This document shows positions 16,458 through 36,257 of a stretch of 36,305 nucleotides of DNA, in pieces. Under the pieces are notes generated by a model. The model worked only from the letters and a program-made list of their open reading frames with translations. It made no database searches and was not told where the DNA came from. Position 1 is the first letter of the stretch. Each line of letters starts with the position of its first letter. The stretch is taken from positions 1 through 36,305 of IMG/VR virus record IMGVR_UViG_3300042294_003760; one strand, 5' to 3'. The position numbers and the translations under genes are program-made. The DNA comes from a virus.

Positions 16458-17344
16458 TATTTAATTATGTTTATGATTGAGGCGATACACGCCATAAAAT
16501 TGATTTCTTTATCTACTACTGTTGCATGTTTAAATTGGTATTCAGCTAATGTCATTGTAATTAATCCATTATCTTTACCTAATTCATCATATAACGCTCT
16601 ATACATTGGTTCAAAGTCAGATATGTTATTATCTACTAAGTATTGTCTAACTGTTTTAAATGCATCTTTACCTTGAATTAATTTAACTACATCTGTTATA
16701 TCGAATTTAGTATTAATTTTAGTTAATTCTAATTCACCATTAATAGTATTTTGTTGAGTTACATTAATAATTTTACGAATGTCAGGATGGTATTCATTAA
16801 TAATTCTAGCTACATCTTTTAAATGATATGTAATGTTTTCTGCAGTTAAAATATCAGCGATGTGACTAGCAATTAATGGTTTGGATAGCGTTTCAATTTT
16901 AAATGCTTGGCATCTAGACTGTAATGGCTCAATAATACGCTCAACGTAATTACATGTTAGAATAAAACGTGTTTTAGCCGAGAATGTTTCGATTATGTTA
17001 CGTAATGATGCTTGTGCATTGATAGTTAAGTAATCAGACTCATCTAATATTACTACCTTTAATGGTTGAAATGTAGATGTAGAAGCAAATGATTTTACTT
17101 TATCACGAATTGTATCAATTCCATTTTCATCTGATGCATTAATATACATCATATCGCAATTAATATTTTGAGTGATTAATTTAGCTAATGTAGTTTTACC
17201 TGTACCTGCTTTACCGTATAATAATAAGTGTGGAATGTCGTTTTTGGTAATCCAACTACCGATTGTAGTTTTTAATTCGGTATTGCCGATGTATTGATCT
17301 AATGTTTGCGAGCGGTACTTTTCAGTCCAAAGAGTATGTTGCAT
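16457..17344 (-). CDS. Clamp-loader ATPase subunit, gp44/RFC-small type
   Basis: A 295-aa AAA+ protein. Seen: LWTEKYRSQTLDQYIGN (RFC box-like start), Walker A LLYGKAGTGKTTLA, Walker B KVVILDESDYL, sensor 1 RFILTCNY and the arginine-finger motif QSRCQAFKI (SRC). In T4 this subunit (gp44) opens the gp45 ring at primer ends using ATP. It lies downstream of a 49-aa coiled-coil gene and upstream of the zinc-ribbon and gp62-like genes, forming the clamp-loader unit. Confidence 0.92.
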   Translation of the reverse strand: MQHTLWTEKYRSQTLDQYIGNTELKTTIGSWITKNDIPHLLLYGKAGTGKTTLAKLITQNINCDMMYINASDENGIDTIRDKVKSFASTSTFQPLKVVILDESDYLTINAQASLRNIIETFSAKTRFILTCNYVERIIEPLQSRCQAFKIETLSKPLIASHIADILTAENITYHLKDVARIINEYHPDIRKIINVTQQNTINGELELTKINTKFDITDVVKLIQGKDAFKTVRQYLVDNNISDFEPMYRALYDELGKDNGLITMTLAEYQFKHATVVDKEINFMACIASIINIIK

Positions 17345-17882: not shown

Positions 17883-18221
17883 TTACTTTAAATCTAACTC
17901 TAACTGGTTACTCCCAGTTGTTGGTTGTTGTGGTAATGTAGATGTATAATGCCAACTACCACTTTGTGAATTTACATAAGCAGTTGATGTTGATGGATTA
18001 TAGGTAATAGAACCATATTTAGGTGTAACTATAATAGTCCCACTACTACCTGATGATGTTGTCAATACTACACCACCATCAATAGGCGATCCATAATCAG
18101 GACAGTCTTTAATTTTACTCAACTCGGAGGCAATGATTCCCCATTGCCCCCGTGTTGGTCCCTCTTCATTAACTGCTTTAGCAAATCCTTTAAGCCAATA
18201 AATGAATTGTTCTTTATTCAT
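17883..18221 (-). CDS. Phage hypothetical protein, 112 aa
   Basis: I start at 18221 (MNKEQFIYWLKGFAKAV), because this ATG overlaps the GroEL stop by 8 bases, whereas the longer frame runs deep into groEL. The N-terminus EQFIYWLKGFAKAVNE then GPTRGQWGIIASELSKI resembles a short helical motif often seen in phage proteins (WLxGF...PTxxQWxxI). The rest is Ser/Thr/Gly-rich with SYNPSTSTAYVNSQSG-type sequence and ends LELDLK. Function unknown. Confidence 0.62.
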   Translation of the reverse strand: MNKEQFIYWLKGFAKAVNEEGPTRGQWGIIASELSKIKDCPDYGSPIDGGVVLTTSSGSSGTIIVTPKYGSITYNPSTSTAYVNSQSGSWHYTSTLPQQPTTGSNQLELDLK

Positions 18222-21801: not shown

Positions 21802-22443
21802 TTAATTTAGCTTTAAAAGCATGCCAATTCCCATATAAGCATTTGGACGCATAGAACCTTCATGTACGTTTCCACCTACTTGTAATTGAAGTAAATTATC
21901 ATTTAAGTTTTTACGAACAATTGATAATCCAAATGACTGGAAGGGTTGTATAAAGTTTGTAGTCATATGTGGGCCCATATACCATTGTACTGTTTTTGGA
22001 CGATATACTTCTACAATTCGTTCCTTAACTTTTGGTTTTACATCAGCAATCCATCTCCTACTTACTAAACGATTATGAGAGATTGTATCTGTAATTATAA
22101 CACTACCAATACCATCTTCTAATGTTAGTACTTCCTTATGTGCGTTTTTTGGATAATATTGTTGCAAAATAGCAACTGTATCTAATGCTGTAGGAGCAGT
22201 TGGAACATTTACTAACTTATATTCAATTTGCTTTACAATCTGAGGTTTTGACTTTTTAATTTTTATTTGTGGAACATATTTAATTTGAGTAACTTCAATT
22301 TTTTGAGGTACAGGTAAAGGAATTACTTTAGATACAGTAGCAACGCCATTTTTATATGTTTTAACAATAATAAATTTCTGTTTTTGACCGAATGCTGACA
22401 CTCCCATCAACATTAGTAATAATATGTATAACTTTTTCATCAT
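21802..22443 (-). CDS. Secreted or envelope-associated hypothetical protein, 213 aa
   Basis: A signal peptide is clear (MMKKLYILLLMLMGVSAFGQ). A long Lys/Pro/Ile-rich extended region with repeats such as IKKSKPQIVKQIEYK and KPKVKERIVEVYRPKTV follows. The C-terminal part (WYMGPHMTTNFIQPFQSFG, AYMGIGMLLKLN) has the alternating pattern of an outer-membrane barrel end. Unknown family. A spanin-like or envelope role for a phage is possible. Two in-frame ATGs begin it, and I keep the first. It lies just after the polymerase gene. Confidence 0.68.
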   Translation of the reverse strand: MMKKLYILLLMLMGVSAFGQKQKFIIVKTYKNGVATVSKVIPLPVPQKIEVTQIKYVPQIKIKKSKPQIVKQIEYKLVNVPTAPTALDTVAILQQYYPKNAHKEVLTLEDGIGSVIITDTISHNRLVSRRWIADVKPKVKERIVEVYRPKTVQWYMGPHMTTNFIQPFQSFGLSIVRKNLNDNLLQLQVGGNVHEGSMRPNAYMGIGMLLKLN

Positions 22444-22460
22444 ATATAAATATATATTTT

Positions 22461-25118
22461 TTAATCAAAAGTGAAGAATTTGTTAAAATTAGCATTAAAG
22501 ATAGGCATCCCCCACCCAATATCAGAATATAGTCCTTCAATTTTATTTTTCATTACTGAATCAAATAGTAGTCCTCTATTAATGTACTTTTCAATAAATT
22601 CAATAATTTGTGGAGGATCATTATAGCCATTAAATCCGATACAATCAATTTTAAATGGATTATCTTTTAAATATGCAATTAGCATTTTATCACCAATTTG
22701 GAATTTAGAGTATTGTTTATCTAATCCTTTAAATTGTAGTAAGTCATTGTAGCGGATAGCGGCTTTAGTATTGATTGGACATTTTAATCGTAGTTTACTA
22801 AATATTTCACCGTTTCTAGGACGTGAATCAATATATGATCCTAATTGCTTTAATCCAGTTGGTTTTAGTAATTGACGCCAATCAATTGTATTTACTTTAG
22901 TTTTAAATTCAAGTATTTGTTTATCGATATCTTGTTTTTGTTTACCAAACATGATTTGGTTTAGAATCGACTCGCCAAATTCACGGAATAATGGTGGAAA
23001 GTTAGACTTCATCAAATCCAATCCTTTCATGTCTAGCTCTTCAACTGTAACACCTTCCTTATTTACAATATACATTGCGTAACGACGTTTACCTGAGAAA
23101 TAGCCCCGTTCGATTACTACCTCTTGTTTTAATTCAAAATAGTGAGGTCGATCATGTAGATTAAATAAATCAACAATTAGTGTATCTAAATGTTTATTTG
23201 CTAATGATTGTATTTCGGTTGCAAGCTCTAACGTAGCAGCAATACAAGCAGCTTTATCAGTTAAATCAACACCTTCAGCTCGTAATAAATCCTTAACATG
23301 AATAAATAATGAATCGGTATCTGAAGTTATAATATAATCTTTATTATTTGTACCTAATCGCTCATTCATTATTTTATTACAGAATATAATCGATTCTTGA
23401 GTTAATCGTTGTCCTGTTAATGTAATGGCTTTAGATATCATCTTATGTCCATCAGTATAGCGCCACGAGTTCAGAGCAAATACACCATACACGTCATTTA
23501 ACTTAATTTTATATGCATGTTGGCGTCGGTTATAGAACTCGCCCATAGCAGTATCACCTGCTTTGTATGCTTTTTTCATTAGGTTCTTATACTCAACACG
23601 TTTATTAAACCAGTCAGTTAAGATTTCACACACGACTGATTGTTTATTTTTATCGAATATAACACCGGGAGCCGATATAATTAAGTTATTATTTTTAACA
23701 AAATTATACATTATACCTGCTGTTGTTTGTGTTTCTTTTATTGTTTTATCTGGTAGTAATTTTTCAACAATAACTGGGGTGTTAGGATCCATACCCTTTA
23801 ATTCATCTAAGGACCACTGATTATCAGTTTTATGTTTATTTTGGATACGACCTACTAATGTTTCAATACCAATATTTAAAGAACGAATAATTGATGGATA
23901 TAGCGATGTAAAGTCTAAGTCAATTACCCACTCGTATAATCCTGGTTCAGGTTCTTTTAAATAACCACCTGCATATTCAGATAATTCAATAATTCTATCA
24001 TATTCTTTTTTAGCCTCTTCTTTTTTATCACTATTCTGATAGTTAAATTCAGCTTTTTTACGTGATAAACCAGCTAGTTGTTTATTTGATGTTGTAGGTT
24101 TATTAGGTGATGCAATATTTTTACGTTTTAAATAAGTTAAAATAGCACCATCATTTAAAGTGGTTGAAAAATATATAGTTTTATAAGTTGTATGGCATAA
24201 ATGACATACTGTAACTGTTAGATCAATAAATTTTAATTTTTCCTCTAATTTAACTAAAATTTCAACGTCACGAATATTATATTCGATAAATTTCTGTACG
24301 TCTTCCTTAAATAATTTATCTAATGAACCATAATACTCAATTTTACCTAACTTAACATACTTAGTTCCAATATTACCTAATGCGTATGATGGTTCTTGTT
24401 TAGTTACATATTTTTTAAATAGTAACATATAATCTAAATGATTAATTCCTCCTATTTGGATTGGACATTCATCACTTTCATCATCTATGTATATTTTTCC
24501 AATTGGAGATAAACGGGAAGCTGTTACTCCACCATCATCAAATACGTTAACGATCCTGTTGTATGTATAAGGTACATCAAAGAATTCGCTGTTCCACCCC
24601 GAGATTATTGTTGGATCTATTTCATTCCATTTATCTAGGAACGCGAGCAGCAAGATTTTTTCTGAAACACAAGAGATAATAAATGTATTATCTTTTTGAG
24701 AACTTTCAAGTAATTGATTTTCATCTAATATATAGCAATAATATTGTTTTGTGTTTACATCATATAAAGCAATTGATGTTATTTTAGTAGGAGCATTAGC
24801 TACTGTTTGAGGTGTTAATGCACCTGCAATCTCGCACTCAATATCAAAAAATACTGTATTGTGGTATGATGGTGTATCGTCTGATTCTGAGTATAAATCA
24901 ACTAATACTCGAGTATCTTTATCAACATCTTTTTCTAAACAATCATCTGAATATGTTTTAGTTGGTGATACTTTATCACCAAACAATGTTAAATATTGAC
25001 CTTGTGGATCTGGTTTGTAAAATGTTGGTTGGTATTTAAATTCTTTTTTCCAACCAAATATATCATCACGTAGATAATATAGTTTAGTTTTTCTATCGTA
25101 ATAAATTGCTTGATACAT
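22461..25118 (-). CDS. Family B replicative DNA polymerase, gp43-like
   Basis: An 885-aa protein with 3'-5' exonuclease and polymerase domains. Exo I has FFDIECE at 90-96 (D92, E94). Exo II has SGWNSEFFD at 173-181. Exo III has EYNIRD at 279-284. Polymerase motif A has DLDFTSLYPSI at 400-410. Motif B has KIKLNDVYG at 537-545. Motif C has SDTDS at 599-603. All catalytic residues appear intact. It is T4 gp43-like in size (898 aa) and lies upstream of the gp45-like clamp. A motif-like promoter precedes it. Confidence 0.96.
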   Translation of the reverse strand: MYQAIYYDRKTKLYYLRDDIFGWKKEFKYQPTFYKPDPQGQYLTLFGDKVSPTKTYSDDCLEKDVDKDTRVLVDLYSESDDTPSYHNTVFFDIECEIAGALTPQTVANAPTKITSIALYDVNTKQYYCYILDENQLLESSQKDNTFIISCVSEKILLLAFLDKWNEIDPTIISGWNSEFFDVPYTYNRIVNVFDDGGVTASRLSPIGKIYIDDESDECPIQIGGINHLDYMLLFKKYVTKQEPSYALGNIGTKYVKLGKIEYYGSLDKLFKEDVQKFIEYNIRDVEILVKLEEKLKFIDLTVTVCHLCHTTYKTIYFSTTLNDGAILTYLKRKNIASPNKPTTSNKQLAGLSRKKAEFNYQNSDKKEEAKKEYDRIIELSEYAGGYLKEPEPGLYEWVIDLDFTSLYPSIIRSLNIGIETLVGRIQNKHKTDNQWSLDELKGMDPNTPVIVEKLLPDKTIKETQTTAGIMYNFVKNNNLIISAPGVIFDKNKQSVVCEILTDWFNKRVEYKNLMKKAYKAGDTAMGEFYNRRQHAYKIKLNDVYGVFALNSWRYTDGHKMISKAITLTGQRLTQESIIFCNKIMNERLGTNNKDYIITSDTDSLFIHVKDLLRAEGVDLTDKAACIAATLELATEIQSLANKHLDTLIVDLFNLHDRPHYFELKQEVVIERGYFSGKRRYAMYIVNKEGVTVEELDMKGLDLMKSNFPPLFREFGESILNQIMFGKQKQDIDKQILEFKTKVNTIDWRQLLKPTGLKQLGSYIDSRPRNGEIFSKLRLKCPINTKAAIRYNDLLQFKGLDKQYSKFQIGDKMLIAYLKDNPFKIDCIGFNGYNDPPQIIEFIEKYINRGLLFDSVMKNKIEGLYSDIGWGMPIFNANFNKFFTFD

Positions 25119-25160: not shown

Positions 25161-26240
25161 TTACAATAATAATTTAACTTGATGTAATGCAGATGCAATT
25201 ACCTGGTGCATATCATAATATTTGTAATCAGCTAATCGTCCTCCAAATATATGTTTTTCCTCTTGTAGCATTAATTTTTTATATAGATCATATTTTTTAT
25301 TATTTTTTTCATCATTTATAGGATAATAAGGCTCACCTGTAGTTGATGGATATTCACGAGTAATAATAGTATGATCTTGTTTTCCAAATTCAAAGTGTTT
25401 ATGCTCAACAATTCGAGTATATGGAATTTCTTCTTCATTATAATTTATAAGAGCATTCCCCTGATAATCAGGAATGTCAAGATATTCGCTTTCAAATCGT
25501 AATGAACGATAATCTAAATTTCCATAAGCATATCCATAAAACTTATCTATAGGTCCTGTGTATATTACTTTATGTGCTAAATTATCTAAATTTTCTTTAT
25601 CTTCTAAATAATCTATATTTAGTTTTACTTCAATACCTTTTAATAATTTTTCAAATATTTGAGTGTAACCACCAATAGGAATACCTTGATACTTATCATT
25701 AAAATAGTTATCATCATAAGTTAATCTAATAGGTAATCGTTTAATGATTGAAGATGGTAGTTCTTTAGGACTTCTTCCCCATTGTTTAGTAGTATATCCT
25801 TTAATAAAACGTTCGTATATTTTTTCTCCTACTTGAGATAAAATCCATTCTTCTAAATTTTTAGGTTTATCATTTGGTATCCTTTCTAAATCTAATATTA
25901 ACTCAGCTTGTTGAGGGGTAGTTACTCCATACACTTGATGCAAAGTCATTAAATTAATAGGAAACGAGTATATATTACTTTTATATTTAACTTTAGGCCG
26001 TAAAGTAAAATGATTAAATTCAGCAAATTGGTTTATATAATCCCATACTTGTTTATTACTAGTATGAAATATATGAGGACCATAAACATGAATGTTAATT
26101 CCACCTACATCAGCAGTATAACAATTTCCACCTATGTGGTCTCGTTTATCAATCACTAATACTTTTTTACCTGCATTAGTTAATTCTCTAGCACATATAG
26201 AACCGAATAATCCAGCTCCAATAATTAAATAATCGTACAT
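25161..26240 (-). CDS. glf: UDP-galactopyranose mutase
   Basis: A 359-aa flavoenzyme that converts UDP-galactopyranose to UDP-galactofuranose. Seen: FAD-binding DYLIIGAGLFGSICAREL, IDKRDHIGGNCYTAD, NIHVYGPHIFHTSNKQVWDYI, YTTKQWGRSPKELP, and a C-terminal FGGRLADYKYYDMHQVI. All these blocks are standard for Glf. The product donates Galf to glycans or proteins, so it feeds some transferase of the cassette. It ends just before the polymerase promoter and follows the epimerase gene. Confidence 0.95.
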   Translation of the reverse strand: MYDYLIIGAGLFGSICARELTNAGKKVLVIDKRDHIGGNCYTADVGGINIHVYGPHIFHTSNKQVWDYINQFAEFNHFTLRPKVKYKSNIYSFPINLMTLHQVYGVTTPQQAELILDLERIPNDKPKNLEEWILSQVGEKIYERFIKGYTTKQWGRSPKELPSSIIKRLPIRLTYDDNYFNDKYQGIPIGGYTQIFEKLLKGIEVKLNIDYLEDKENLDNLAHKVIYTGPIDKFYGYAYGNLDYRSLRFESEYLDIPDYQGNALINYNEEEIPYTRIVEHKHFEFGKQDHTIITREYPSTTGEPYYPINDEKNNKKYDLYKKLMLQEEKHIFGGRLADYKYYDMHQVIASALHQVKLLL

Positions 26241-26250
26241 AATCTATTTA

Positions 26251-26266
26251 AAATAAATTAAGAAAA
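26251..26266 (-). promoter_or_regulatory. Candidate promoter of glf
   Basis: Minus strand TTTTCTTAATTTATTT, about 10 bases before the ATG at 26240, overlapping the stop codon of the upstream epimerase gene. Confidence 0.35.
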
Positions 26267-27253
26267 CATTTGAGATTGAATCCATTTATACGTTTTTTCC
26301 AAACCAATATAAAGCGGTTGTGTAGGTTCCCAGCCTAATTTTTCTTTAATTAGTGTATTATCTGATGTTCTACCTCTAACACCTTGTGGGCCAGGAATAT
26401 TTTTAATTCCTGCTCGTTTACCTGCTAGTTTAATTACCATTCTAGTTAAACTATTCATTGAAATTATATAATCGGAACCAATATTAATAGGTTCAATATA
26501 ATTTGATTTCATTAAGCGGCGAACACCTTCAATTGCTTCATCAATATATAAAAATGAACGTGTTTGTAGACCATCACCCCACACTTCAATTTCTTCATCC
26601 ATTAATGAATCAGCTACTTTGCGGCATATTGCTGCTGGTGCTTTTTCTTTTCCCCCATAAAATGTACCTTCAGGTCCAAATACATTATGAAAACGAGCAA
26701 CACGAATATCTAATCCATAATTACGATTGTATGTTGCATATAATCGCTCTGAAAATAATTTTTCCCACCCATATTCTGAATCGGGATAAGCAGGATATAC
26801 TGAATTTTCTGTGCAAATTGGGTTTTCAGGATCTAATTGATTGTGCTCATTATAAACACAAGCAGATGAAGCATAAAATATTTTTTTAATTGATTTTTTA
26901 TGAGCTTCACGTACTACATTTAAATTAATTAACATAGAATTATGCACTACCTCCGCATCATTATCACCAGTATTAATATAACCAGCACCTCCCATATCTG
27001 CAGCTAGCTGATACACTTCATCAAATGAGTTCTCGTTATCCTGTTCTGATAATTGATGTGGGGCGTATAATACTTTAGATACTAATGATGGATTTCTTAA
27101 ATCTCCAATAATAAATTCATCAGCTTCTGATGAGGAAAATTCAGGTAATTTCAAATCAACTCCCCTTACCCAATATCCTTCAGATTTTAATCTTTTAACT
27201 AAATGGCTCCCTATAAAACCTCCTGCTCCTAATACTAGTGCTTTTTTATTCAT
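26258..27253 (-). CDS. GDP-mannose 3,5-epimerase-like enzyme
   Basis: A 331-aa extended SDR. The NAD loop GAGGFIGSHLVKRL is at 9-22. YASSACVYNE at 127-136 supplies the active-site Cys (C132). SEYGWEKLF at 159-167 has the Tyr-x3-Lys pair. GGKEKAPAAICRK at 200-212 supplies the second catalytic Lys. VWGDGLQTRSFLYIDE and IPGPQGVRGRTSDN are specific to plant and bacterial GDP-mannose 3,5-epimerases. The product would be GDP-L-galactose (some family members also make GDP-L-gulose). In this cassette it probably supplies an unusual donor. It overlaps the next gene by 8 bases. Confidence 0.85.
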   Translation of the reverse strand: MNKKALVLGAGGFIGSHLVKRLKSEGYWVRGVDLKLPEFSSSEADEFIIGDLRNPSLVSKVLYAPHQLSEQDNENSFDEVYQLAADMGGAGYINTGDNDAEVVHNSMLINLNVVREAHKKSIKKIFYASSACVYNEHNQLDPENPICTENSVYPAYPDSEYGWEKLFSERLYATYNRNYGLDIRVARFHNVFGPEGTFYGGKEKAPAAICRKVADSLMDEEIEVWGDGLQTRSFLYIDEAIEGVRRLMKSNYIEPINIGSDYIISMNSLTRMVIKLAGKRAGIKNIPGPQGVRGRTSDNTLIKEKLGWEPTQPLYIGLEKTYKWIQSQMFS

Positions 27254-27959
27254 AATTTGATATTATTTTATTATATGCGTTTTTATAAGATTCGTATAAA
27301 TTAGGATCTCCGTTTCCTGTGTTGTGAATTACAAATGGTTTTGAGTTAGTTGAAGGATTAGATATATTTTCTTCGATATCAATATTTTTTAAAACATCCC
27401 AATCTTTACTAGTTACCCAAAATACATCACAATTAGTATCTAATTGTACTTTTTTATTATCTTCAAAATTATTATAAACCCATACCCCAAGTAATCCTTG
27501 ATCTATATCAGTTGGGTAAAGTTTATAAATTTCAAACAATTCATCAACCATTATTTTTAAATCACCAGCATATCCCATAAAAGTTCCAGCATTAACATAT
27601 TTGTAGTCTGAATTTATAGTATCAAATTTATGTTGAAATTTTCCCCACTGGTATGTAAATAATTTCTCTGATGATATTAATATTTTTGTATTTTTTTGAT
27701 GAAATTGAGATAAAGTATATTCTACAGTATTGTTAAATAAAGTATCGTATCCATCCATTACTAATATAACTTCTTCAGGGTTAATATCTTTAAGATAATC
27801 TTGTAGTATATATAATCTGTTGGTAAAATTTGTAAAAGTATGTCCTATTCCAATTAATTCAACATCTACACCAAAATATTTAGCTGTATTTAATAAATAT
27901 TCTGCTTTAGTTTCAGCAGTTTTTAAATCTGATTCTATTCCCCAAACTAATATTTTCAT
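27246..27959 (-). CDS. PLOD/LH3-type glycosyltransferase domain protein
   Basis: A 237-aa protein with the pattern of the glycosyltransferase domain of procollagen lysyl hydroxylase 3. ILVMDGYDTLF at 65-75 matches the D..D donor site. TKILISSEKLF and YVNAGTFMGYAGDL at 121-134 follow. DIDQGLLGVW at 151-160 carries another acidic motif, and KPFVIHNTGNGDP at 207-219 resembles the conserved H..NG end. LH3 adds galactose and glucose to hydroxylysine of collagen. No hydroxylase domain is fused here. A hydroxy-amino-acid acceptor is an attractive inference, and the 2OG oxygenase in the cassette strengthens it. Confidence 0.75.
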   Translation of the reverse strand: MKILVWGIESDLKTAETKAEYLLNTAKYFGVDVELIGIGHTFTNFTNRLYILQDYLKDINPEEVILVMDGYDTLFNNTVEYTLSQFHQKNTKILISSEKLFTYQWGKFQHKFDTINSDYKYVNAGTFMGYAGDLKIMVDELFEIYKLYPTDIDQGLLGVWVYNNFEDNKKVQLDTNCDVFWVTSKDWDVLKNIDIEENISNPSTNSKPFVIHNTGNGDPNLYESYKNAYNKIISNYE

Positions 27960-27960
27960 T

Positions 27961-28731
27961 TTAATTTTTAAAAAGTTTATGGATCATTTTAAATCCTTCT
28001 ACATATTCTGCATTAAATCTATATGAAGAACGTTCATTTTGTTTTTGAATTCCATTTTTTATTGATTCTGGAGTTTTGTAATAAAATGGATGTATAAGAA
28101 AAGGTTGATTTTCCATATCTAAATCTAATCCTAATTCTTTAAATAATTTACCTATACAAATATCTTCAAAAACTTCAGTAGAACCTTTACTTATATTATC
28201 ACAGGTGAGTTCAAGATATCTATCCCCATGTGATACTACTTGCTCAACTAAATCTCTTGAAATATAATTATATGCACTAATAACAAACCATATATCTTTC
28301 ATCCCCGCAATAGCTCCAGTATATAATTTTTTACAAGGAAGCATTTTACTTTCTTCTATTATTTTATTAACATCTAAATAAGAAGTACAGTTAGTTCTAA
28401 ACAATACATCAAAATCAAAATGTTCTAATAAATACTTAAAAGCATAATATGTTTTTATACCTCTAGGATCTATATCATCTGTATAATCTAATAGATCAGC
28501 ACAATTTATATAAAGTTGATTTTCATCTTGAATATATTTATAAGGTTCATTATTAAAATCTATATTTAAGTCTAAATCACTTTTAATAGTTTGATATGCT
28601 CGACTCCCACAATATTTTATAGTTGGAATTTTTAAATCTATAAATTTACTTAAACAATAATCATTATGTAAGTTTGAAATTTCTTCATATCTTTTATCTA
28701 ATGTGTATTGACTTAATACTATTAATTTCAT
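27961..28731 (-). CDS. Putative glycosyltransferase, GT31-like fold
   Basis: A 256-aa protein. KTYYAFKYLLEHFDFDVLFRTNCTSYLD places an R.N.S.LD motif where GT31 beta-1,3-transferases carry the DxD site. YNYISRDLVEQVV and EVFEDICIGKLFKELGL match the later EDV.xG motif of that family. The assignment is by pattern only. The donor is unknown. It is closely packed with the PLOD-like gene (one base apart). Confidence 0.65.
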   Translation of the reverse strand: MKLIVLSQYTLDKRYEEISNLHNDYCLSKFIDLKIPTIKYCGSRAYQTIKSDLDLNIDFNNEPYKYIQDENQLYINCADLLDYTDDIDPRGIKTYYAFKYLLEHFDFDVLFRTNCTSYLDVNKIIEESKMLPCKKLYTGAIAGMKDIWFVISAYNYISRDLVEQVVSHGDRYLELTCDNISKGSTEVFEDICIGKLFKELGLDLDMENQPFLIHPFYYKTPESIKNGIQKQNERSSYRFNAEYVEGFKMIHKLFKN

Positions 28732-28735
28732 TATT

Positions 28736-29329
28736 TTATTTTTTAGTTATTTCTAAAATAATATCATCTCCTCTTCCTTTAATTTCTCTGAAGTCAAAAA
28801 AGCGAAAATCATGTAAATTACTATCTAACAATGAAACTAATTGTTCTCCAACTAGGGGAGATGGATCCTGACTAAGATAAAATATATCTTCTATTATTAA
28901 TTTCCCTCCAAATTTTAATTTAGGTAACCATTTTTTAATACATAATTCATGAGATTCAAAAGTATGAGGCCCATCATCTATAATATAATCAAAATAATTA
29001 TTTTCAAATTTATTTGTAACATCATTACAATAAGCATCTCCCCAAATCATTTCAGCTCCTGGAATATGTTTAAATTTTGATCTTCTTAGATTACCAAATA
29101 TACCACTATCGTCATCTATTCCGATTATGTTAGCATTTACAAACCAACTCTTCCATAACTTTAAAGAACTTCCTTCCCAAATTCCAATCTCTAAAAAATT
29201 TAAATCTTTAGATCTTTTATCTGAGAATTCTAAATCATAGTAATGTTCTATATATGAATGATTAGTTCCCTTATCACAATCCCAAATATTATTAGATTGT
29301 CCGTCTGTGTAAAAATCTTTAAATTTCAT
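28736..29329 (-). CDS. SAM-dependent methyltransferase
   Basis: A 197-aa class I methyltransferase. FLEIGIWEGSSLKLWKSWF is a SAM-binding motif I of the Methyltransf_24 and cephalosporin hydroxylase type. ANIIGIDDDSG supplies the ribose-binding acid. FDYIIDDGPHTFESHELC is motif IV-like. Such enzymes methylate sugars and phenolics. Its location between transferases suggests sugar methylation in this cassette. It overlaps the next gene by 11 bases. Confidence 0.75.
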   Translation of the reverse strand: MKFKDFYTDGQSNNIWDCDKGTNHSYIEHYYDLEFSDKRSKDLNFLEIGIWEGSSLKLWKSWFVNANIIGIDDDSGIFGNLRRSKFKHIPGAEMIWGDAYCNDVTNKFENNYFDYIIDDGPHTFESHELCIKKWLPKLKFGGKLIIEDIFYLSQDPSPLVGEQLVSLLDSNLHDFRFFDFREIKGRGDDIILEITKK

Positions 29330-30323
29330 TTTTCTTTAATTTTATTAATTCCCATTCATTTAAATCTGTAATTGTTATAGGATTTGGAATAACACCTTTA
29401 AATACATCAGGATGAGCTGCGGTATCTTTAAATGATACCCCAGAATATATTTCCCAATCTAATAAACTACGTTCTTTTCCACAACCATATACTCCTAATT
29501 CATTACCTGCTACTATTTTATTATATTTTTGAGAACTAATATGGGATTTTTGATCAATAACTTTTTGATCAAATGTATTCCAATGACGTTTTCTATGTGA
29601 AAAATTATATTTTAAATGCCAAATTACAAATTTATTCGGATTAAATATATCATATCCGTTAGTATAGCTTCTTAAAGTTAATGTAGGTTCTTCACCAGCA
29701 AAGTATAAATCAGAATCATAGGGTACATCTTTAACCCATTTTCCAACAGTAAATAACAAAGCAGCACTTATATGCCTAGCAGGAATTGGTTTTGAAATAT
29801 CCTCAGCTGGTAAAAATCCATACATAAAATGAATACCACCAGCACTATCTAATTTTTGTTTTTGAATAACACTATCACGGTAAATACCATCTATAAAATC
29901 TACAGGTTCCCATTCTAAATGAGGTAAAGCACCTTCTGCTGATAAATCATAATAATATGGGGGACCAACTGATATTACTGCTTTGTCTGTTGGTAACTCA
30001 TTGTACATATTAATTAATATTTCATCCCAATCTTGGGCAAATAATGTGTGAGAATCTATCTGAAAGTAGTATTCTTCATCATTAAAGAATTTTTGTTGAA
30101 TAATACTTCTAGCCCAACACACACTTCCTTCTACATCTTCCCAACATACTTTGTAAGATTGTACTTGAGGTATATCATCTAATGCAGTTATATCTTCTTC
30201 ATCATCATATTGCCAACAAATTCCAATTCTAACATTTTCAGGATGTTTAGCTTTAGATAAACAACTATTAACAGTTTTTATCAGTTCTTTATCTCTATAT
30301 GAGGCTATACTTACAAAAATCAT
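29319..30323 (-). CDS. GT60/Gnt1-like glycosyltransferase
   Basis: A 334-aa protein of the GlcNAc transferase family PF11397 (GT60). MIFVSIASYRDKELIKTVNSCL opens the fold. SVCWARSIIQQKFF and YYFQIDSHTLFAQDWDEIL at about 86-104 hold the DSH donor motif. YFAGEEPTLTLRSYTNGYDIFNPNKF and VIWHLKY follow. Known founding member: Dictyostelium Gnt1, which adds GlcNAc to hydroxyproline on Skp1. A bacteriophage copy next to a prolyl-hydroxylase-like gene is striking. Donor and acceptor are inferred. Confidence 0.85.
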   Translation of the reverse strand: MIFVSIASYRDKELIKTVNSCLSKAKHPENVRIGICWQYDDEEDITALDDIPQVQSYKVCWEDVEGSVCWARSIIQQKFFNDEEYYFQIDSHTLFAQDWDEILINMYNELPTDKAVISVGPPYYYDLSAEGALPHLEWEPVDFIDGIYRDSVIQKQKLDSAGGIHFMYGFLPAEDISKPIPARHISAALLFTVGKWVKDVPYDSDLYFAGEEPTLTLRSYTNGYDIFNPNKFVIWHLKYNFSHRKRHWNTFDQKVIDQKSHISSQKYNKIVAGNELGVYGCGKERSLLDWEIYSGVSFKDTAAHPDVFKGVIPNPITITDLNEWELIKLKKNEI

Positions 30324-31015
30324 AGACTGTAGTTATAATATTGAGGGCGCAAATTAGCACGTTTTAAATGTTCATTTTTAAAATCATAGAATTCTTTTCT
30401 AGGTCTTCCATGAAATCCAAAAGGTTCTATACCTTCTAAATCTATTTCATGTAGTTCATGAGAAAAATGTTTTGCTACTTCTAAAGGAGCAAACTTACAC
30501 CCATTACTTTCTAATAAGCTTCTATTATGGATACAATAAAAAGCATCTTCATGCCACGTATCAAAATCCATAGTTCGATTTCTAAAATCTAATTGTATAG
30601 GTAAATTAATAAGTTTTTTAGATCTTAAACAAAACCCACCATTTCCTACTCTAGTATTTCCTGTAAATCCCCACTGTGGCTCATCAGGCCAAGGAGCACC
30701 TATATAATCATATTCTAAGAATATATCAGTCCATTTGTGAGGATTAATAATAAAACCATCAGCTTGTACTAATAAAACAAAATCGGTATTAATATACTGA
30801 GGAAATTTATTTACCATGAAAAAACTATATTCATTTTGGCTTTTTATTTCTTCACATTCTATCCATTCGATTCCAGGCTCGTTTATTTCTTTATGTGTAA
30901 TGAATTTAGTTTCAGCAAATTTAAAATATTGAGATGAATAATTTAAAGCTCTTACGTGGTCATCTATATGAACACTACTTACTGTGCATAAAGTAACATT
31001 ATCAAGTTTTATCAT
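30320..31015 (-). CDS. DUF5672-type putative glycosyltransferase
   Basis: A 231-aa protein. FVLLVQADGFIINPHKWTDIF, DYIGAPWPDE, VGNGGFCLRSKKL, WHEDAFYCIHNRSLLE and EPFGFHGRPR are the ordered conserved blocks I associate with DUF5672, a GT-A-related family found with polysaccharide genes. It overlaps the GT60 gene by 4 bases, so the two are likely coupled. The reaction is not known. Confidence 0.72.
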   Translation of the reverse strand: MIKLDNVTLCTVSSVHIDDHVRALNYSSQYFKFAETKFITHKEINEPGIEWIECEEIKSQNEYSFFMVNKFPQYINTDFVLLVQADGFIINPHKWTDIFLEYDYIGAPWPDEPQWGFTGNTRVGNGGFCLRSKKLINLPIQLDFRNRTMDFDTWHEDAFYCIHNRSLLESNGCKFAPLEVAKHFSHELHEIDLEGIEPFGFHGRPRKEFYDFKNEHLKRANLRPQYYNYSL

Positions 31016-33763
31016 TTATATACGTCTAAATTTCCAATTAAAATATTCTTCTAACTGCTCAAGATTTCGTTCAAATTCTGAATTAAATAACATATTATTT
31101 ACAGATTCTATAGAATTATCATTTATCAAATATGAATTATTATGTTCTCGGTATGGTTTTTCATCTTCAGCTAAACGGAACTCATAATTATGCCATACTG
31201 TAGCTTCAGAAGGAACAAATAAATTCCACCCTTTTAAATAACTTAAAAAAGTTAAAAAATCTTCTTCTCCATTAAATATAATTTCATCAGGCATTGTTAC
31301 TTCATCTACCCATTGTTTTTGAGTAAATAAAAACCCAGCACCTGCCCATCTTGTTTCTTTTACTTCATAGTCTTGAAGGGAAGGTAAATTTTCAGCTCTT
31401 ACTCTATTATCTTTAAGATTATAATCATCTAAAAATTGTCTGATGCGAAGTGGAGTATTATATGGTAAATCTAAATACTTTTTTTCTGGATCGGGCATAT
31501 CAAAGTGATTAGGATATGTAGTAATTACAACTTTTGGTTGTTCAATACTATTATATTGATTAATTAAAATAGCATCCCAATTCTTTTTTACCCTTGAATG
31601 AGAATCAATTTGAAGGAAATATTCTTCACCTTGATATAATTCTTCTCGAATTTTATTCCTTGCCCATACTACCCCCTTAGCATTTTCTTTTAATGTAAAT
31701 TTAATTTTTAAATTTGGATAATTTAATTTTAATAATTCATCATATACTTCTTGAGTATCTTGTAGATGTAACCCAACAACTATTCGGGTTTCATCACATG
31801 CTTCAGAATATATACTTTTTAAAGTATCTGTAATTCTGCTATCACAATAGCTAGCAACAGATACAAATACTCTACCTTTATACCAATTCCAAGAATCTTT
31901 ATATTCACGAGCCCAATTAGCAATATAACTGTTGTCCATTGTAAATACTTCTTGTAATCCTGGGTTGTATTTTTCGGTGTTTATATAATAATTTTTATCT
32001 TCAATATCACCCATATATCCTCTTAAACGATAAATGTATGATGATAAAGTAGATAGTTTATTACCTATAAATTTAATTGACCGAGTACAGATTAATTGTT
32101 CAATTATTGGAATATAATTTACATCAAATTTATCATATATTTTAATTTTAGAACGAATATCATCATAAAAGAATAAACTATAATGTTTAGATAAAGGATC
32201 AAAAAACGATGGGTCATTTTGGTCAGTTGCAATGTATAGTTTAGAACCAAAAGGAATAATATCTTTAATATTATCTAAAATTTGTTCACACGTAATGAAT
32301 AAGTCTTTATATTGAAAATCATTTCGTCTGATATGAATTGAATAATATGATTTATCTTCTAAATAGTTAATAAACTGCCATGCTATATCAAATATTTCTG
32401 GTTTGTATTTTACATATTTAGCAATTAGTTTTTTAATTTCATCATCTAAGCAAGTATAAATTGCTTGATAACTACTACCTAATAAATTACTATCTAAAAA
32501 TATACATTCTTCATTAGTAAAATAATCTTCATCATTAATATAATTTCTACCTTTTAAAAACTTTGAGGGTGGAGGTATACGTTCAAAATTTATTACATTA
32601 GCTACAGCATCATAGTTTAATACTTTACTAATAGTTTTAATTTCATCCCAATTATTAGGTATGTTTTTTAAAGAACAAAATTCATCAAATGAAATTGATT
32701 TAATTCCTAGATTAGATGTATCAAAGAAGGTATCCATACTAGATTCACCTTTAAGTAAATACATACTATATTTAGGAGTTAATACTAAAGTTCTATTTGT
32801 TAGATATGCTAAACATACTGCTAACTCCATAGACATTCTAATATTATTAAAACCACCAGGCCAAGGTTTAAATATTAAATACCCTTTAGAACCATCATAA
32901 AATTTAAATATAGAATCAAAATTATATTTTAAATAATATAAATAGTCTGTACGTTGTTGATCTACATCTGTAAGTAGTAGATTATCTAGTTTATTTTTAG
33001 TTGTATTTAATAATATTTTTTGGTCTGGGGTGAATGTATAATCTTGTTTAAAGAATATTCTATCATTATTTTCATTTAATATTTCATTAGGATAATGAAT
33101 TAAATTACCAATAGTATCTCTATCATTAAATCTATTCCACTCAGTGCAAGTACCCCAATCTTCAATTAATTTGATATTAATGTTATTTTCCTTCAAAGCA
33201 TAATCCAGCCCCCACATTTCAGATTCCCATTTTCCAGTTTGCTTTCTTATTTGTTCGCAGAATTTAGTATAATCTTTGCTTATTTTCTTTAATGTAGAAA
33301 ATTTTAAAGCAAAAGGATACATTATACCTTCAGAACTACTATATTTTTTCCAATCAGGTAAATCTTGAAAATGAATAAATTTTTGACCTATTACTTGATT
33401 ATCTGCAATATCAACATCTATTGGTGTCTTAAACACCATGTCTGGGTCTAAAAATAATAATTTATCTTTATCTTTGAAGTAATTATTATCACATAACCAT
33501 TCAACTGCTTTATACTTGTTAGGAATACCTCCCCACCAATCATCGTTTTCAGTTTTCCATTTCCAAGCCCAATCAGGTTGATTAATAATAGTTACATCTG
33601 ATGGAAAATCAAAATCTGGATTTTCTCCAGCATGTAATTCATCAGATGATACTAATAATACTAATTTACCTTTTTGTTTTGATTTTTTGATTGACCAATA
33701 TAACAATTTTAACTGCCAAGCTTGATAGTCGCATTTGCTAGTACTTACAACTATATAATCCAT
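31016..33763 (-). CDS. Three-module glycosyltransferase: HPAT-like, O-FucT-like, GT60-like
   Basis: A 915-aa single frame. Module 1 (about 1-270): YQAWQLKLLYW, PNKYKAVEWL, LLFLDPDMVFKTP (DPD at 106-108) and MWGLDYALKEN, matching the layout of plant hydroxyproline O-arabinosyltransferases. Module 2 (about 293-590): YLIFKPWPGGFNNIRMSMEL and LTNRTLVL, YYSIHIRRNDF, LYIATDQ and KLSTLSSYIYRLRG, the protein O-fucosyltransferase signature set. Module 3 (about 630-890): VFVSVASYCD, VVWARNKIREEL, YFLQIDSHSRVKKNWD, FNGEEDFLTFLSYLKGWNLFVP, a second GT60 unit. It would add several sugars to one acceptor. The order beside the 2OG oxygenase suggests hydroxyproline as acceptor. Confidence 0.82.
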   Translation of the reverse strand: MDYIVVSTSKCDYQAWQLKLLYWSIKKSKQKGKLVLLVSSDELHAGENPDFDFPSDVTIINQPDWAWKWKTENDDWWGGIPNKYKAVEWLCDNNYFKDKDKLLFLDPDMVFKTPIDVDIADNQVIGQKFIHFQDLPDWKKYSSSEGIMYPFALKFSTLKKISKDYTKFCEQIRKQTGKWESEMWGLDYALKENNINIKLIEDWGTCTEWNRFNDRDTIGNLIHYPNEILNENNDRIFFKQDYTFTPDQKILLNTTKNKLDNLLLTDVDQQRTDYLYYLKYNFDSIFKFYDGSKGYLIFKPWPGGFNNIRMSMELAVCLAYLTNRTLVLTPKYSMYLLKGESSMDTFFDTSNLGIKSISFDEFCSLKNIPNNWDEIKTISKVLNYDAVANVINFERIPPPSKFLKGRNYINDEDYFTNEECIFLDSNLLGSSYQAIYTCLDDEIKKLIAKYVKYKPEIFDIAWQFINYLEDKSYYSIHIRRNDFQYKDLFITCEQILDNIKDIIPFGSKLYIATDQNDPSFFDPLSKHYSLFFYDDIRSKIKIYDKFDVNYIPIIEQLICTRSIKFIGNKLSTLSSYIYRLRGYMGDIEDKNYYINTEKYNPGLQEVFTMDNSYIANWAREYKDSWNWYKGRVFVSVASYCDSRITDTLKSIYSEACDETRIVVGLHLQDTQEVYDELLKLNYPNLKIKFTLKENAKGVVWARNKIREELYQGEEYFLQIDSHSRVKKNWDAILINQYNSIEQPKVVITTYPNHFDMPDPEKKYLDLPYNTPLRIRQFLDDYNLKDNRVRAENLPSLQDYEVKETRWAGAGFLFTQKQWVDEVTMPDEIIFNGEEDFLTFLSYLKGWNLFVPSEATVWHNYEFRLAEDEKPYREHNNSYLINDNSIESVNNMLFNSEFERNLEQLEEYFNWKFRRI

Positions 33764-35005
33764 TTATTGCCCTGTATAAGTATAATCTGATAATTTATAA
33801 TGTATAAACATATTTCTATAGAACTCACCATCAAATGGTTCTATTCTACCATGTTTACAAATTGCTGATTCATATAAAATCAAATCCCCAGGTTCAGCAT
33901 ATATTTTATGCCATTCACCATCATGATCTTGAAAATCTAATGCCCAATCTTTATCTACTTGTTTATCAACTACAATAATAGAAGAAACATGATGTGTTTG
34001 GGGTCTATCTGTATGATTTTCTAGTATAGCTCCTCTCATATAAGATCTAATACCATAAATACAAAAAGGTTCTATTGAACGTCCTTGGGCGAATTCTTGA
34101 TGAAGTGGTTTTAATTCTTCTAAAATAATTTCTTTAATTCTAAAACAATGATCCATGTTAAAAATTTCAACAGGTGCTTTTCCATCATTATCATGAATAA
34201 AATCAGTAATTCCATTCCAACTTTCTACTGTTTTAACTGATTGTAATAAATTGTATGCTTCTTTTACTAATCTCCATGTATTTTCTGGGACTTTTACTAC
34301 TTTAAACCCTAAAGGACTTAATTTTGGTAATTCACTTGGAGAATTAAAATTACGTTTTTTATTTTTATTATGATATTCTGTTGCTAATCTTTCGTCTTCG
34401 ATGGAATTATACATATTTTCTCTAAACCATTTAGTAATAATCATTTTCTTTCCTTTCACGACAGCTAAACCCGAATGATGACCGGCTGGGTTTTCACTTC
34501 CGGTTCCATTTGAATTTTTCCAAACAACAGCGGTTCCTTTTTGAGGTGCTATTCTTTGATTTATACGTGGAAAGTCAGTTTCACCTCCTTCTTCTACATC
34601 ATTTAAATAAATCATAAAAGTCCATGTTCGTTGCCCACTAGCTAAACAATGATTAGTATAACCATCCCCATCAAAATAATCATTATGGTAATTAAAATAT
34701 TGACCTTCCTGATAAATTTGACCTTGAGTAGGTTCTGAATACTCACTTGCAATTCCTAATTCCTCATACATTTTATTATTAATAGATTGGAATTTAGGAT
34801 CATTATCAGGAATTACTGATGTGTTACTTGTGCGTCCATTATCATATGTTGATTTTTTTAATCCAGATCCAGCTACAGTAGAACGAGTATTATTAATTTC
34901 AATATGATTACATAAATAATCACATTCATCATCATTTAAAAAATTAGGAATAGTAAATATTTCTAGTCCCTGATTATTTTCGATGTAATTTCTAATGTTT
35001 TGCAT
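33764..35005 (-). CDS. Tandem 2OG-Fe(II) oxygenase, prolyl-4-hydroxylase-like
   Basis: A 413-aa protein with two jelly-roll oxygenase modules. Module 1 (about 15-197) has FNYHNDYFDG with H107/D109, GHHSGLAVVKGKKMIITKWFRE with the distal His (H177) and a 2OG-binding Lys, and EGGETDFPRI, a prolyl-4-hydroxylase pattern. Module 2 (about 285-405) has ENHTDRPQTHHV with H331/D333, EPGDLILYESAICKHGR with H385 and an Arg (R397) for 2OG. Both facial triads look intact. Hydroxylation of Pro, Lys or another residue is expected. Immediately downstream is the 915-aa transferase. Confidence 0.85.
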   Translation of the reverse strand: MQNIRNYIENNQGLEIFTIPNFLNDDECDYLCNHIEINNTRSTVAGSGLKKSTYDNGRTSNTSVIPDNDPKFQSINNKMYEELGIASEYSEPTQGQIYQEGQYFNYHNDYFDGDGYTNHCLASGQRTWTFMIYLNDVEEGGETDFPRINQRIAPQKGTAVVWKNSNGTGSENPAGHHSGLAVVKGKKMIITKWFRENMYNSIEDERLATEYHNKNKKRNFNSPSELPKLSPLGFKVVKVPENTWRLVKEAYNLLQSVKTVESWNGITDFIHDNDGKAPVEIFNMDHCFRIKEIILEELKPLHQEFAQGRSIEPFCIYGIRSYMRGAILENHTDRPQTHHVSSIIVVDKQVDKDWALDFQDHDGEWHKIYAEPGDLILYESAICKHGRIEPFDGEFYRNMFIHYKLSDYTYTGQ

Positions 35006-35540
35006 TTTTTAATTCTTCTTCGGTAAAAAATTGTCTTAAATTAGGGGCAAAATATGATAATGATTTTTGTACTTTACGGTCTTCTGAGCGGTAAACTACA
35101 AATTTATTACCACGTTTTTCAAAATGACAGGGGCGTTGCGATGCAGCAGTTCTAAACTTAGCAGTTGCATCAGCTTCTTCCTCGGTAGCACATGATTTAG
35201 ATAAATTAGATTGTTGTACTTCGTTGTATGCAGCTAAAAATTTATCTTTTAAACCAAATGCCATAATACCTGCTGATAATACGTACATAATATCACAGAA
35301 AGCATCTAATACTTCAACAATATCTCCTTCATCAGCCGCATGTTTATATTCATCTAATTCTTCCTGAATAAAGTTATAAATAAAATCACGTTCCATTTTT
35401 TCAGGAATTGTAGGTATTTTATTATTCAATTTACCAAATAATTGGTTAAATTCCTCTACTTCGGATACGAAGTATAATCGATCTTTATCAACTTCTTGTT
35501 TGATAATTTGCTCTTTCCAATTTTCTAATTCTTGTTCCAT
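34992..35540 (-). CDS. MazG/PRA-PH-like NTP pyrophosphohydrolase
   Basis: A 182-aa mostly helical protein. FIQEELDEYKHAADEGDIVEVLDAFCDIMYVL carries the EExxE...ExxD metal motif of all-alpha NTP pyrophosphatases, and YNEVQQSNLSKS completes the active-site helix. Members hydrolyse dNTPs or alarmone-like nucleotides. A C-terminal ~60-residue extension (FEKRGNKFVVYRSEDRKV) is family-typical of phage forms. It overlaps the oxygenase gene by 14 bases and follows folE, forming a nucleotide module. Confidence 0.8.
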   Translation of the reverse strand: MEQELENWKEQIIKQEVDKDRLYFVSEVEEFNQLFGKLNNKIPTIPEKMERDFIYNFIQEELDEYKHAADEGDIVEVLDAFCDIMYVLSAGIMAFGLKDKFLAAYNEVQQSNLSKSCATEEEADATAKFRTAASQRPCHFEKRGNKFVVYRSEDRKVQKSLSYFAPNLRQFFTEEELKNAKH

Positions 35541-35546
35541 AACTTA

Positions 35547-36257
35547 TTAAATATATGCTTGTAGGTTAAATTTTAACATTTCTAATACTTCTTGTTTAGC
35601 TGTTTTAGCGTGATCAGCAAATACACCTGATACTTCTGATGTCATCATACTAGCACCCATATGCTTAACTCCACGGCATGATACACAATTGTGTGTTGCA
35701 TGCAACATTACCATAATACCTTCATTACCTTCAATTAATTTATCCATAGCATTATGAATAGCCATAGTTAATTGTTCTTGAATAGCACCTCTACGTGAGA
35801 AATGTTCAACTACACGATTTAATTTAGATAAACCGATTACTTTAGTTTGAGGACCAGGTACATATGCAATATGACATTTACCTAAAATTGTTTGATGGTG
35901 GTGAGAACACATTGATACTACTGGGATATCACGTTCTAATACAATACCTGTATAACCATCTGATGGGAATGCTGTAACATCACCTAATACTTCATAACGA
36001 CCTCTCCATAAATCATTAACGTATGCTTTAGCAACACGTTTTGGAGTGTTTGATGAATTTGGATCGTTTTTCCAATCAACACCTAATGCGTCTAAGAAAT
36101 TACCATATGCAACAGTTGCATTATCAATAATGGTTTGTTTTTCTTCTACGGTTAGAGAGCGCTCTTTACCTTCGGTTTCAATGATTTGTTGTAAATGGAG
36201 TGAGATACCATTTGCATTACCTGAATTGGTAATTTCTAAATTGCTAATTTCGCACAT
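35547..36257 (-). CDS. folE: GTP cyclohydrolase I
   Basis: A 236-aa protein, near the usual 220. VVSMCSHHHQTILGKCHIAYVPG at about 113-135 replaces the classic CEHH by CSHH but keeps the zinc Cys (C117) and His. HATHNCVSCRGVKH holds the other zinc Cys (C191) and the catalytic RG. VIGLSKLNRVVEHFSRR and the EQLT helix are standard. The enzyme makes dihydroneopterin triphosphate, the first step of folate and of 7-deazaguanine (queuosine-type) synthesis; other queuosine genes are absent here. The CEHH-to-CSHH change may alter activity. Confidence 0.92.
   Translation of the reverse strand: MCEISNLEITNSGNANGISLHLQQIIETEGKERSLTVEEKQTIIDNATVAYGNFLDALGVDWKNDPNSSNTPKRVAKAYVNDLWRGRYEVLGDVTAFPSDGYTGIVLERDIPVVSMCSHHHQTILGKCHIAYVPGPQTKVIGLSKLNRVVEHFSRRGAIQEQLTMAIHNAMDKLIEGNEGIMVMLHATHNCVSCRGVKHMGASMMTSEVSGVFADHAKTAKQEVLEMLKFNLQAYI

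Follow-up and report, generated by a model that had tools for sequence, protein, structure and literature searches.

A probable hydroxyproline-linked protein glycosylation cassette in uncultured tailed phages

This study examined a run of nine genes on the minus strand (25161–35005) of the window, by which we mean the entire IMG/VR virus record IMGVR_UViG_3300042294_003760 (36,305 bases), an incomplete phage genome. Adjacent genes of the run overlap or have at most 17 bases between them. Judging from sequence homology, this cassette probably encodes a phage pathway of hydroxyproline-linked protein glycosylation, the usual targets of which would be proline-rich virion proteins. The reading is carried by a gene pair, a predicted prolyl 4-hydroxylase (P4H)-type oxygenase followed by a glycosyltransferase, that recurs in many uncultured phages, and by the proline-rich genes that often adjoin this pair in the relatives.

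Results

The proteins of the cassette were assigned to families by Pfam, PHROG and NCBIfam profile searches and by comparison with PDB sequences. The two genes forming the pair are as follows:

33764..35005, minus strand: tandem 2-oxoglutarate (2OG)-Fe(II) oxygenase, 413 residues; Pfam 2OG-FeII_Oxy_3, 1.4e-17
31016..33763, minus strand: fusion glycosyltransferase, 915 residues; O-FucT PF10250, 2.5e-25 (residues 295–584), and GT60, 4.2e-36 (residues 683–892)

Successive oxygenase scans of viral contigs yielded 7 loci, then 26 (14 with the tandem form and 12 weak), and then at least 514 relatives, the best 80 of which, from uncultured phages, form 45 clusters at 90% identity. Among the 40 clusters with at least 500 bases downstream of the oxygenase, the next open reading frame (ORF) was an HPAT-family gene in 24, either fused or stand-alone (about 276 residues), an O-FucT gene without HPAT in 5, and GT60 alone in 1; at least one of these three modules lay within the locus in 33 of the 40. 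The HPAT model behind the next-gene counts was a second build that includes stand-alone HPAT genes and excludes one 220-residue sequence. The contigs of clusters L016, L192 and L212 are cut at the oxygenase, and in L179 an HPAT gene lies about 3 kb upstream of it.

A close relative of the window phage (L018; PolB 89%) carries the oxygenase and an HPAT–O-FucT gene, with no GT60 module and none of the other window cassette genes at that place. Because L018 keeps the pair without the remaining cassette, the pair appears to be the core of the system, around which the other sugar genes vary. The surroundings vary as well: the L011 and L015 cassettes are near nucleotide-metabolism genes (by eye), and that of L014 lies between a 2188-residue repetitive ORF and a tail sheath gene. 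A gene for GDP-mannose 3,5-epimerase (GME) was found in the flanks of 6 of the 21 clusters with O-FucT versus none of the 24 without. Inside the L014 cassette there is also a carbamoyltransferase (15131–16789; PF16861, 1e-58), with similar genes in L017, G039/L167 and, by eye, L151, and the glycan may include carbamoylated sugars.

The tandem oxygenase comprises a prolyl-4-hydroxylase domain (about residues 1–200) and a second double-stranded beta-helix domain (about 225–410), and it matched P4Hs among the PDB sequences at E 1e-21 to 4e-18. Residues H107, D109, H177 and K187 of domain 1, the presumed iron triad HxD...H and 2OG-binding Lys, are invariant in a 10-sequence alignment (relatives 42–64% identical to the window's), as are H331, D333, H385 and R397 of domain 2; in a wider set of 16 oxygenases, R397 is the only one of the eight that varies. 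The structural model has a mean predicted local distance difference test score (pLDDT) of 90.3 and a predicted template modelling score (pTM) of 0.55; because of the latter, the two-domain arrangement is unsure. In a fold comparison that mostly concerns residues 1–211, the nearest solved fold to the first 200 or so residues was 3gze (Z 26.9, root-mean-square deviation (rmsd) 2.2, 194 aligned), an algal P4H with a bound (Ser-Pro)5 peptide, which outranks the bacterial, human and chlorovirus P4Hs, including PBCV-1 vCPH (Z 21.9, rmsd 2.3, 162 aligned). From sequence and model, domain 1 is predicted to be of the prolyl 4-hydroxylase type.

The close folds also include P4Hs with elongation factor Tu as partner in their PDB titles (5v7y, Z 23.8, rmsd 2.1, 181 aligned; 4iw3, Z 18.1, rmsd 3.3, 181 aligned), as would suit an oxygenase that controls the host by hydroxylating one of its proteins, for instance elongation factor Tu, while the transferases serve another purpose. 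This appears unlikely, as the best fold is that of the (Ser-Pro) peptide enzyme, an HPAT, O-FucT or GT60 module follows the oxygenase in 30 of the 40 clusters, and proline-rich phage genes often adjoin it. Less probable still is that the cassette hypermodifies DNA, with the oxygenase hydroxylating a base and the transferases glycosylating it. 2OG oxygenases and glucosyltransferases do act on DNA in other phages, and FolE-like genes, joined in L011 by Que-like ones, are found close by (by eye); however, domain 1 matches protein prolyl hydroxylases in both sequence and fold, and the known relatives of the epimerase and the LH3-type transferase of the cassette serve protein or polysaccharide acceptors.

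A tblastn search of 50,697 records of isolated phages matched the tandem oxygenase in 121, none with a coverage of 80% or more, and the same kind of search with the fusion glycosyltransferase matched 5 records. No host-genome relative of the tandem oxygenase was found among 62 pattern matches in genome contigs, a weak search based on two short patterns from the 10-sequence alignment. A further single-domain 2OG-Fe(II) oxygenase (PF13640, 1.6e-9), weakly resembling the first domain of the tandem, is encoded just upstream of the cassette, about 1 kb past the window end (L001 5940–6536).

The fusion glycosyltransferase consists of an HPAT-like module (about residues 1–270), an O-FucT module (about 289–620) and a GT60 module (about 630–905). 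The O-FucT module scored 90.2 bits with PF10250 (cut-off 31.5), and the two GT60 copies of the cassette scored 162.3 and 125.6 bits with PF11397 (cut-off 21). The HPAT-like module claimed by the sequence-only reading gains support from homologues, whereas the window copy itself, with 17.6 bits for PF23452 (E 0.0027), falls below the Pfam cut-off of 23.9. The L009 copy reached 23.7 bits, the homologous L011 fusion 50.7 bits (2.2e-13), and the L014/G008 fusion 36.1 bits (6e-9), with HPAT, O-FucT and GT60 all above cut-off in one polypeptide; as the L011 and L014/G008 homologues exceed the cut-off, the HPAT label of the window fusion was retained. HPAT was above cut-off in 9 of 41 oxygenase records (16 of 41 at E <= 0.001) versus 0 of 14 control genomes, and the stand-alone HPATs of L215 (31.4 bits) and L171 (24.8 bits) also exceed it. 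Stand-alone HPAT and fused module matched each other with a probability of 93.7 and E 2e-7 in one profile comparison, made with a model that still held one wrong sequence. The fusion gave a single match to PDB sequences, a designed protein at E 0.0017 over 43 residues, which was taken as chance.

Candidate substrates were found beside the oxygenase. A proline-rich ORF (at least 14 Pro in 60 residues) was present in 29 of the 45 oxygenase clusters, within 3 kb in 24; with other cluster representatives, the count was 27 of 40, and 19 of 27 among those with at least 3 kb on both sides. The gene directly upstream of the oxygenase was proline-rich in 17 of 44 cases versus 25 of 411 other locus genes, and all 67 proline-rich ORFs of the 80 loci lie on the oxygenase strand. 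The residue preceding Pro in these ORFs was T in 30%, A in 23%, P in 13%, V in 11% and S in 11%, so that these five account for 88% of 2,870 cases in 60 distinct proteins, whereas control genes gave a flat distribution. Such (T/A/S/V)P repeats are typical of plant hydroxyproline-rich glycoproteins.

Thr and Ser are abundant in the same repeats; Ser/Thr are the acceptors of O-FucT enzymes, and some plant relatives of HPAT are known to use Ser. Hydroxylation and glycosylation may hence be separate acts, the oxygenase hydroxylating stalk Pro for stiffness and the transferases targeting Ser/Thr of the same repeats, and we grant this a minor share of the probability, larger than that of any other alternative. 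Against it stands the HPAT-family gene that adjoins the oxygenase in 24 of 40 clusters, an adjacency most simply explained if the transferase needs the hydroxylated product.

In a 64.8-kb contig (G052), the gene order begins with a proline-rich ORF of 1381 residues, a 305-residue gene, a proline-rich ORF of 452 residues and the oxygenase, which is followed by an O-FucT–GT60 gene, GME and a proline-rich ORF of 379 residues. The 305-residue gene had been taken by eye for an HPAT, and this was rejected, as it has no Pfam match. In L151, a 735-residue proline-rich ORF lies directly behind GME, and the fusion of 917 residues has nearly the size of that in the window. In another contig (G034, 171.9 kb; L134–L142), the ORFs at the two ends have the same proline-rich repeat and a repeated domain in common, so this contig may be circularly permuted; APVVTSAP is repeated at great length in one of its ORFs, and SPGPSPG repeats occur in another.

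The search was also run from the repeat side, since ORFs with APTTAPTT repeats adjoin the L014 and L017 cassettes. A DNA pattern for the APTT repeat gave 89 stretches in viral contigs, with 80 loci from 75 records among the matches listed, and 50 of the 75 records were tested (32 of the 33 with at least two matches and 18 of the 42 with one). A PF13640 oxygenase was found in 5 of the 50, in frames of 414–441 residues that all match the tandem; two of the five (those of L014 and L017) had already been found by the oxygenase alone. The remaining 45, many of which are fragments, have no PF13640 oxygenase. An early and little informative count on clipped stretches found cassette genes near the repeat in 2 of the 80 repeat loci. 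A collagen-like substrate was ruled out for the loci examined: no run of at least 8 Gly-X-Y triplets with at least 3 Pro was found in the 80 oxygenase loci and 13 contigs, and PF01391 (collagen) had no match in the window record. One such run was found in 80 muzzle loci (L289).

Some of the proline-rich proteins can be placed in the virion. The 1381-residue protein of G052 matches the crAss muzzle family PF25731 (9.5e-17) and, as a crAss muzzle protein, would be a tail component; another proline-rich protein matches the muzzle C-terminal domain (3.3e-16), and two muzzle N-termini match phrog_14478, a virion structural protein (3.5e-89 and 3.6e-105). Matched control loci were retrieved by means of the first 600 residues of the muzzle, which are not proline-rich, and the best 80 of 552 were taken. 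Neither an oxygenase nor a proline-rich ORF was found in 76 of these (0 of 667 genes); the other four were L219 and L221, both with the oxygenase, and L218 and L267, which were left out of the negatives. The muzzle N-terminus of L218 is identical to that of G052, which carries the oxygenase. Once a further 14 muzzle loci, taken from among the oxygenase loci, had been added, and with negatives scored only if at least 3 kb lay downstream, a proline-rich ORF was present in 16 of 16 muzzle loci with the oxygenase versus 0 of 33 without (Fisher 3e-13, which ignores kinship); 43 of 92 muzzle rows, L218 and L267 included, are outside the scored set. Phage backgrounds outside the muzzle set are represented by L014, L017, L151, L167 and G034.

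The other seven genes of the cassette are listed below:

30320..31015, minus strand: DUF5672 protein, 231 residues; PF18922, 1.9e-23
29319..30323, minus strand: GT60-family glycosyltransferase, 334 residues; PF11397, 2.8e-47; phrog_24687, 3.6e-49
28736..29329, minus strand: methyltransferase, 197 residues; Methyltransf_24, 4e-8
27961..28731, minus strand: 256-residue protein; no family
27246..27959, minus strand: LH3/PLOD-type glycosyltransferase, 237 residues; GT_PLOD PF25342, 3.8e-21
26258..27253, minus strand: GME (GDP-L-galactose donor); PF01370, 8.4e-40; plant enzyme 2c59, E 9.8e-92
25161..26240, minus strand: UDP-galactopyranose mutase (UGM; UDP-galactofuranose donor); PF03275, 3e-79; TIGR00031

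The tandem oxygenase, two GT60 modules, O-FucT module, PLOD/LH3-type transferase and donor enzymes named from the letters alone are thus all present, with Pfam matches at the positions given, and the PF11397, PF10250 and LH3 assignments passed their profile cut-offs. The DUF5672 protein, which has homologues in the cassettes of L014 (81% identical) and L015 (66%), is probably a glycosyltransferase. The stand-alone GT60 protein had no match among PDB sequences at E <= 1, and for the methyltransferase a role in sugar O-methylation is our guess. The 256-residue protein had no match in Pfam, PHROG or NCBIfam, and its fold model (pLDDT 53) had a best Foldseek E of 0.05, with none at E <= 0.001; homologues lie within the cassettes of L015, L017 and G039/L167, and it is perhaps a GT-A-type transferase. 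The LH3/PLOD-type transferase scored 75.9 bits with PF25342 (cut-off 27); its best PDB match was R699 (9dyt, 2.5e-8), which we take to be a mimivirus protein, and human LH3 (6wfv, 5.1e-8) is about equally near. In the alignment of the epimerase to 2c59, the presumed catalytic Cys, Lys and Tyr are conserved. UGM scored 399.9 bits, above the cut-off of 303.75 of the NCBIfam equivalog TIGR00031. Both UGM and the LH3-type enzyme look accessory.

The highest 19-residue Kyte–Doolittle mean over the nine cassette proteins was 1.17; by this crude test, none has a strongly hydrophobic segment. As hydropathy gives no evident signal peptide or membrane segment, the enzymes should act in the cytosol before assembly. 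This bears on a further alternative, in which the transferases and donor enzymes alter the surface of the host (lipopolysaccharide, capsule or S-layer glycan) to keep out other phages, the oxygenase being incidental. Such genes are common in phages, and the window holds a second glycosylation cluster (6092–14596). Nevertheless, we consider this account improbable, about as much so as the modification of a host protein, because the known acceptors of HPAT, GT60, O-FucT and LH3 enzymes are proteins, the cassette proteins have no strongly hydrophobic segment, and the window and L018 differ in accessory genes but both retain the oxygenase–transferase pair.

The cassette is flanked by a family B DNA polymerase gene (22461–25118) and a 182-residue ORF (34992–35540). 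The second glycosylation cluster, also on the minus strand, encodes GT2, DUF3431, GT7-type (Glyco_transf_7N/7C), Methyltransf_24, an FkbM methyltransferase and two GT4-like proteins. A phage GroEL (phrog_5725) and a FolE-like protein are encoded at 18214–19848 and 35547–36257 of the window; the latter, together with the QueC/QueE/QueF-like genes seen by eye in L011 (5182–9066), hints at deazaguanine metabolism in these phages. At the window edge (1–1659, minus strand), a partial SusC/TonB-dependent-receptor-like protein (CarbopepD_reg_2, 6.9e-13; Plug, 7.9e-9) is cut off; a phage-encoded outer-membrane receptor would be unusual. Several proteins of one phage have signal-peptide-like starts (window 21802–22443; L001 1455–2168 and 2179–2598; L127 1403–3205), one of them with a cohesin-like domain (PF00963, 9e-7). 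From the signal peptides and the crAss-like kin, the host may belong to Bacteroidota.

Discussion

The sequence-only reading had proposed that the phage hydroxylates and glycosylates a virion or host protein. The recurrence of the oxygenase–transferase pair in many phages supports this, as do the adjoining proline-rich genes, the muzzle-family matches and the algal P4H with a Ser-Pro peptide as nearest fold, all of which point to such a modification by way of homology and gene context.

The proposed mechanism starts with the tandem oxygenase, which by homology would hydroxylate Pro in the (Thr/Ala/Ser/Val)-Pro repeats of cytosolically synthesised phage proteins. The HPAT-type module would then link a first sugar to the hydroxyl so formed. 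A plausible donor for this step is the UDP-galactofuranose that the mutase would provide, because galactofuranose resembles L-arabinofuranose. In a third step, the O-FucT-type module would add L-galactose, which is 6-hydroxy-L-fucose, from the GDP-L-galactose made by the epimerase, and the GT60, DUF5672 and LH3-type transferases and the methyltransferase may extend and cap the glycan; this order of sugars and these donors are what we infer from the enzyme families. The usual target in this phage group would be a proline-rich linker of virion proteins, the crAss-like tail muzzle included, which could become an extended, sugar-coated stalk.

Several observations weigh against hydroxyproline-linked glycosylation of virion proteins, beside the low HPAT score of the window copy. 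None of HPAT, O-FucT and GT60 was found in 7 of the 40 clusters. A proline-rich ORF is present in the locus of all seven, and in L188, L205 and L211 a PF04488 transferase is the next gene after the oxygenase (L213 alike by eye); L197, L206 and L207 have no transferase directly after it. The known relatives of the LH3-type transferase act on hydroxylysine. The threshold of 14 Pro in 60 residues was set after the first examples were known, 13 having been used earlier. No proline-rich ORF was found in the window or in the longer near-identical contigs, which are fragments with at most 11 Pro in 60 residues, nor in the available DNA of G006, G007 and G009, where the gene pair is present. In L218 and L267 a proline-rich ORF is present and no oxygenase is visible, but both contigs end within 0.6 kb of the muzzle gene, that of L267 about 0.5 kb behind it. 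The oxygenase changes state only twice on the muzzle tree, which leaves no more than two independent pairs; both are concordant (sign test p 0.5).

Concerning the substrate in the window's own lineage, one of the longer near-identical contigs (G001) reaches about 10.9 kb past the window end, and the richest ORFs of the window and these contigs have 10 or 11 Pro in 60 residues, for example, a 100-residue protein with VKPAPTPAPKPKPK. The proline-rich ORF behind GME in L151, whose fusion is so similar in size, suggests that the substrate of the window phage may lie elsewhere in its genome. Beside the single-domain oxygenase is the gene (L001 4409–5938) for a secreted-looking protein of 509 residues, in which TAAS/SAS and SKSES/EAK are repeated over long stretches; this protein is a possible substrate, rich in Ser/Thr, within the same lineage.

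A wider claim, whose chances we judge to be even, is that widespread uncultured tailed phages (crAss-like, sheath-bearing and their 100–170 kb relatives) possess a complete plant- or alga-style system, which would build L-galactose/galactofuranose brushes on the hydroxyprolines of muzzle or stalk proteins with arabinogalactan- or extensin-like repeats, by means of cytosolic enzymes encoded beside their substrate.

Comparison with known systems

A metagenomic study describes the use of P4H by viruses as still cryptic (PMC9301287), and according to the Phold paper many phage proteins resemble human EGLN3 (PMC12774648). The P4H gene described here is regularly accompanied by transferase genes, and in relatives a candidate substrate on the virion can be seen, which makes the question testable. 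Among the papers listed from the open full-text literature, subscription papers and preprints being outside the scope, no phage P4H–HPAT or hydroxyproline-glycan system was found. We know of no hydroxyproline-linked glycosylation in bacteria or their viruses, and the present case, if true, would be the first known to us; this modification would then extend beyond eukaryotes and the viruses that infect them. Phage tails would bear a new kind of glycoprotein, by which adsorption and stability could be affected, and the cassettes would offer compact cytosolic enzymes with which hydroxyproline-linked glycans could be produced in bacteria.

Among viruses, mimivirus is described as encoding a hydroxylase and a glycosyltransferase for its own collagen (PMC8968730). 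The phage cassette is similar in combining a hydroxylase with glycosyltransferases for what may be its own protein, mimivirus R699 is the best match of its LH3-type transferase, and the chlorovirus enzyme PBCV-1 vCPH is a near fold of its oxygenase. However, mimivirus and chloroviruses infect eukaryotes, and the substrate in mimivirus is collagen, whereas the 80 phage oxygenase loci have no collagen-like repeat. The isolated Synechococcus phage S-SCSM1 (MK867354) carries an O-FucT flanked by 2OG oxygenases, one of them 37% identical to the second domain of the tandem, with GME, GMD and GDP-fucose synthase beside the O-FucT. It differs in having no HPAT match in its record and in covering at most 45% of the tandem oxygenase anywhere, and its annotation states no pathway function. 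Several 2OG oxygenases, the O-FucT, GMD, GDP-fucose synthase, GME and many transferases lie together in this phage (L005 14424–31089), and the cluster may encode a related pathway in a phage that has been isolated.

In the Skp1 pathway of Dictyostelium, a P4H acts first and is followed by the GT60 enzyme Gnt1. The phage cassette likewise joins an oxygenase with GT60 and appears cytosolic, but one Pro of a globular protein is modified in Skp1, whereas virion-protein repeats are the likely target in the phages.

The pathway of plant and green-algal hydroxyproline-rich glycoproteins employs P4H and HPAT, and its products include extensins and arabinogalactan proteins. The phage system differs in that it lies in a phage genome, its enzymes lack evident signal or membrane segments, its oxygenase has a second domain, and its HPAT is stand-alone or fused to O-FucT and GT60. 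It shares with the plant and algal pathway the P4H accompanied by an HPAT-family transferase, the (A/T/S/V)P repeat proteins in phage relatives, the algal P4H with (Ser-Pro)5 as nearest fold, and GME as in plants. The phage pathway would be, chemically, a version of the plant and algal hydroxyproline-glycoprotein pathway.

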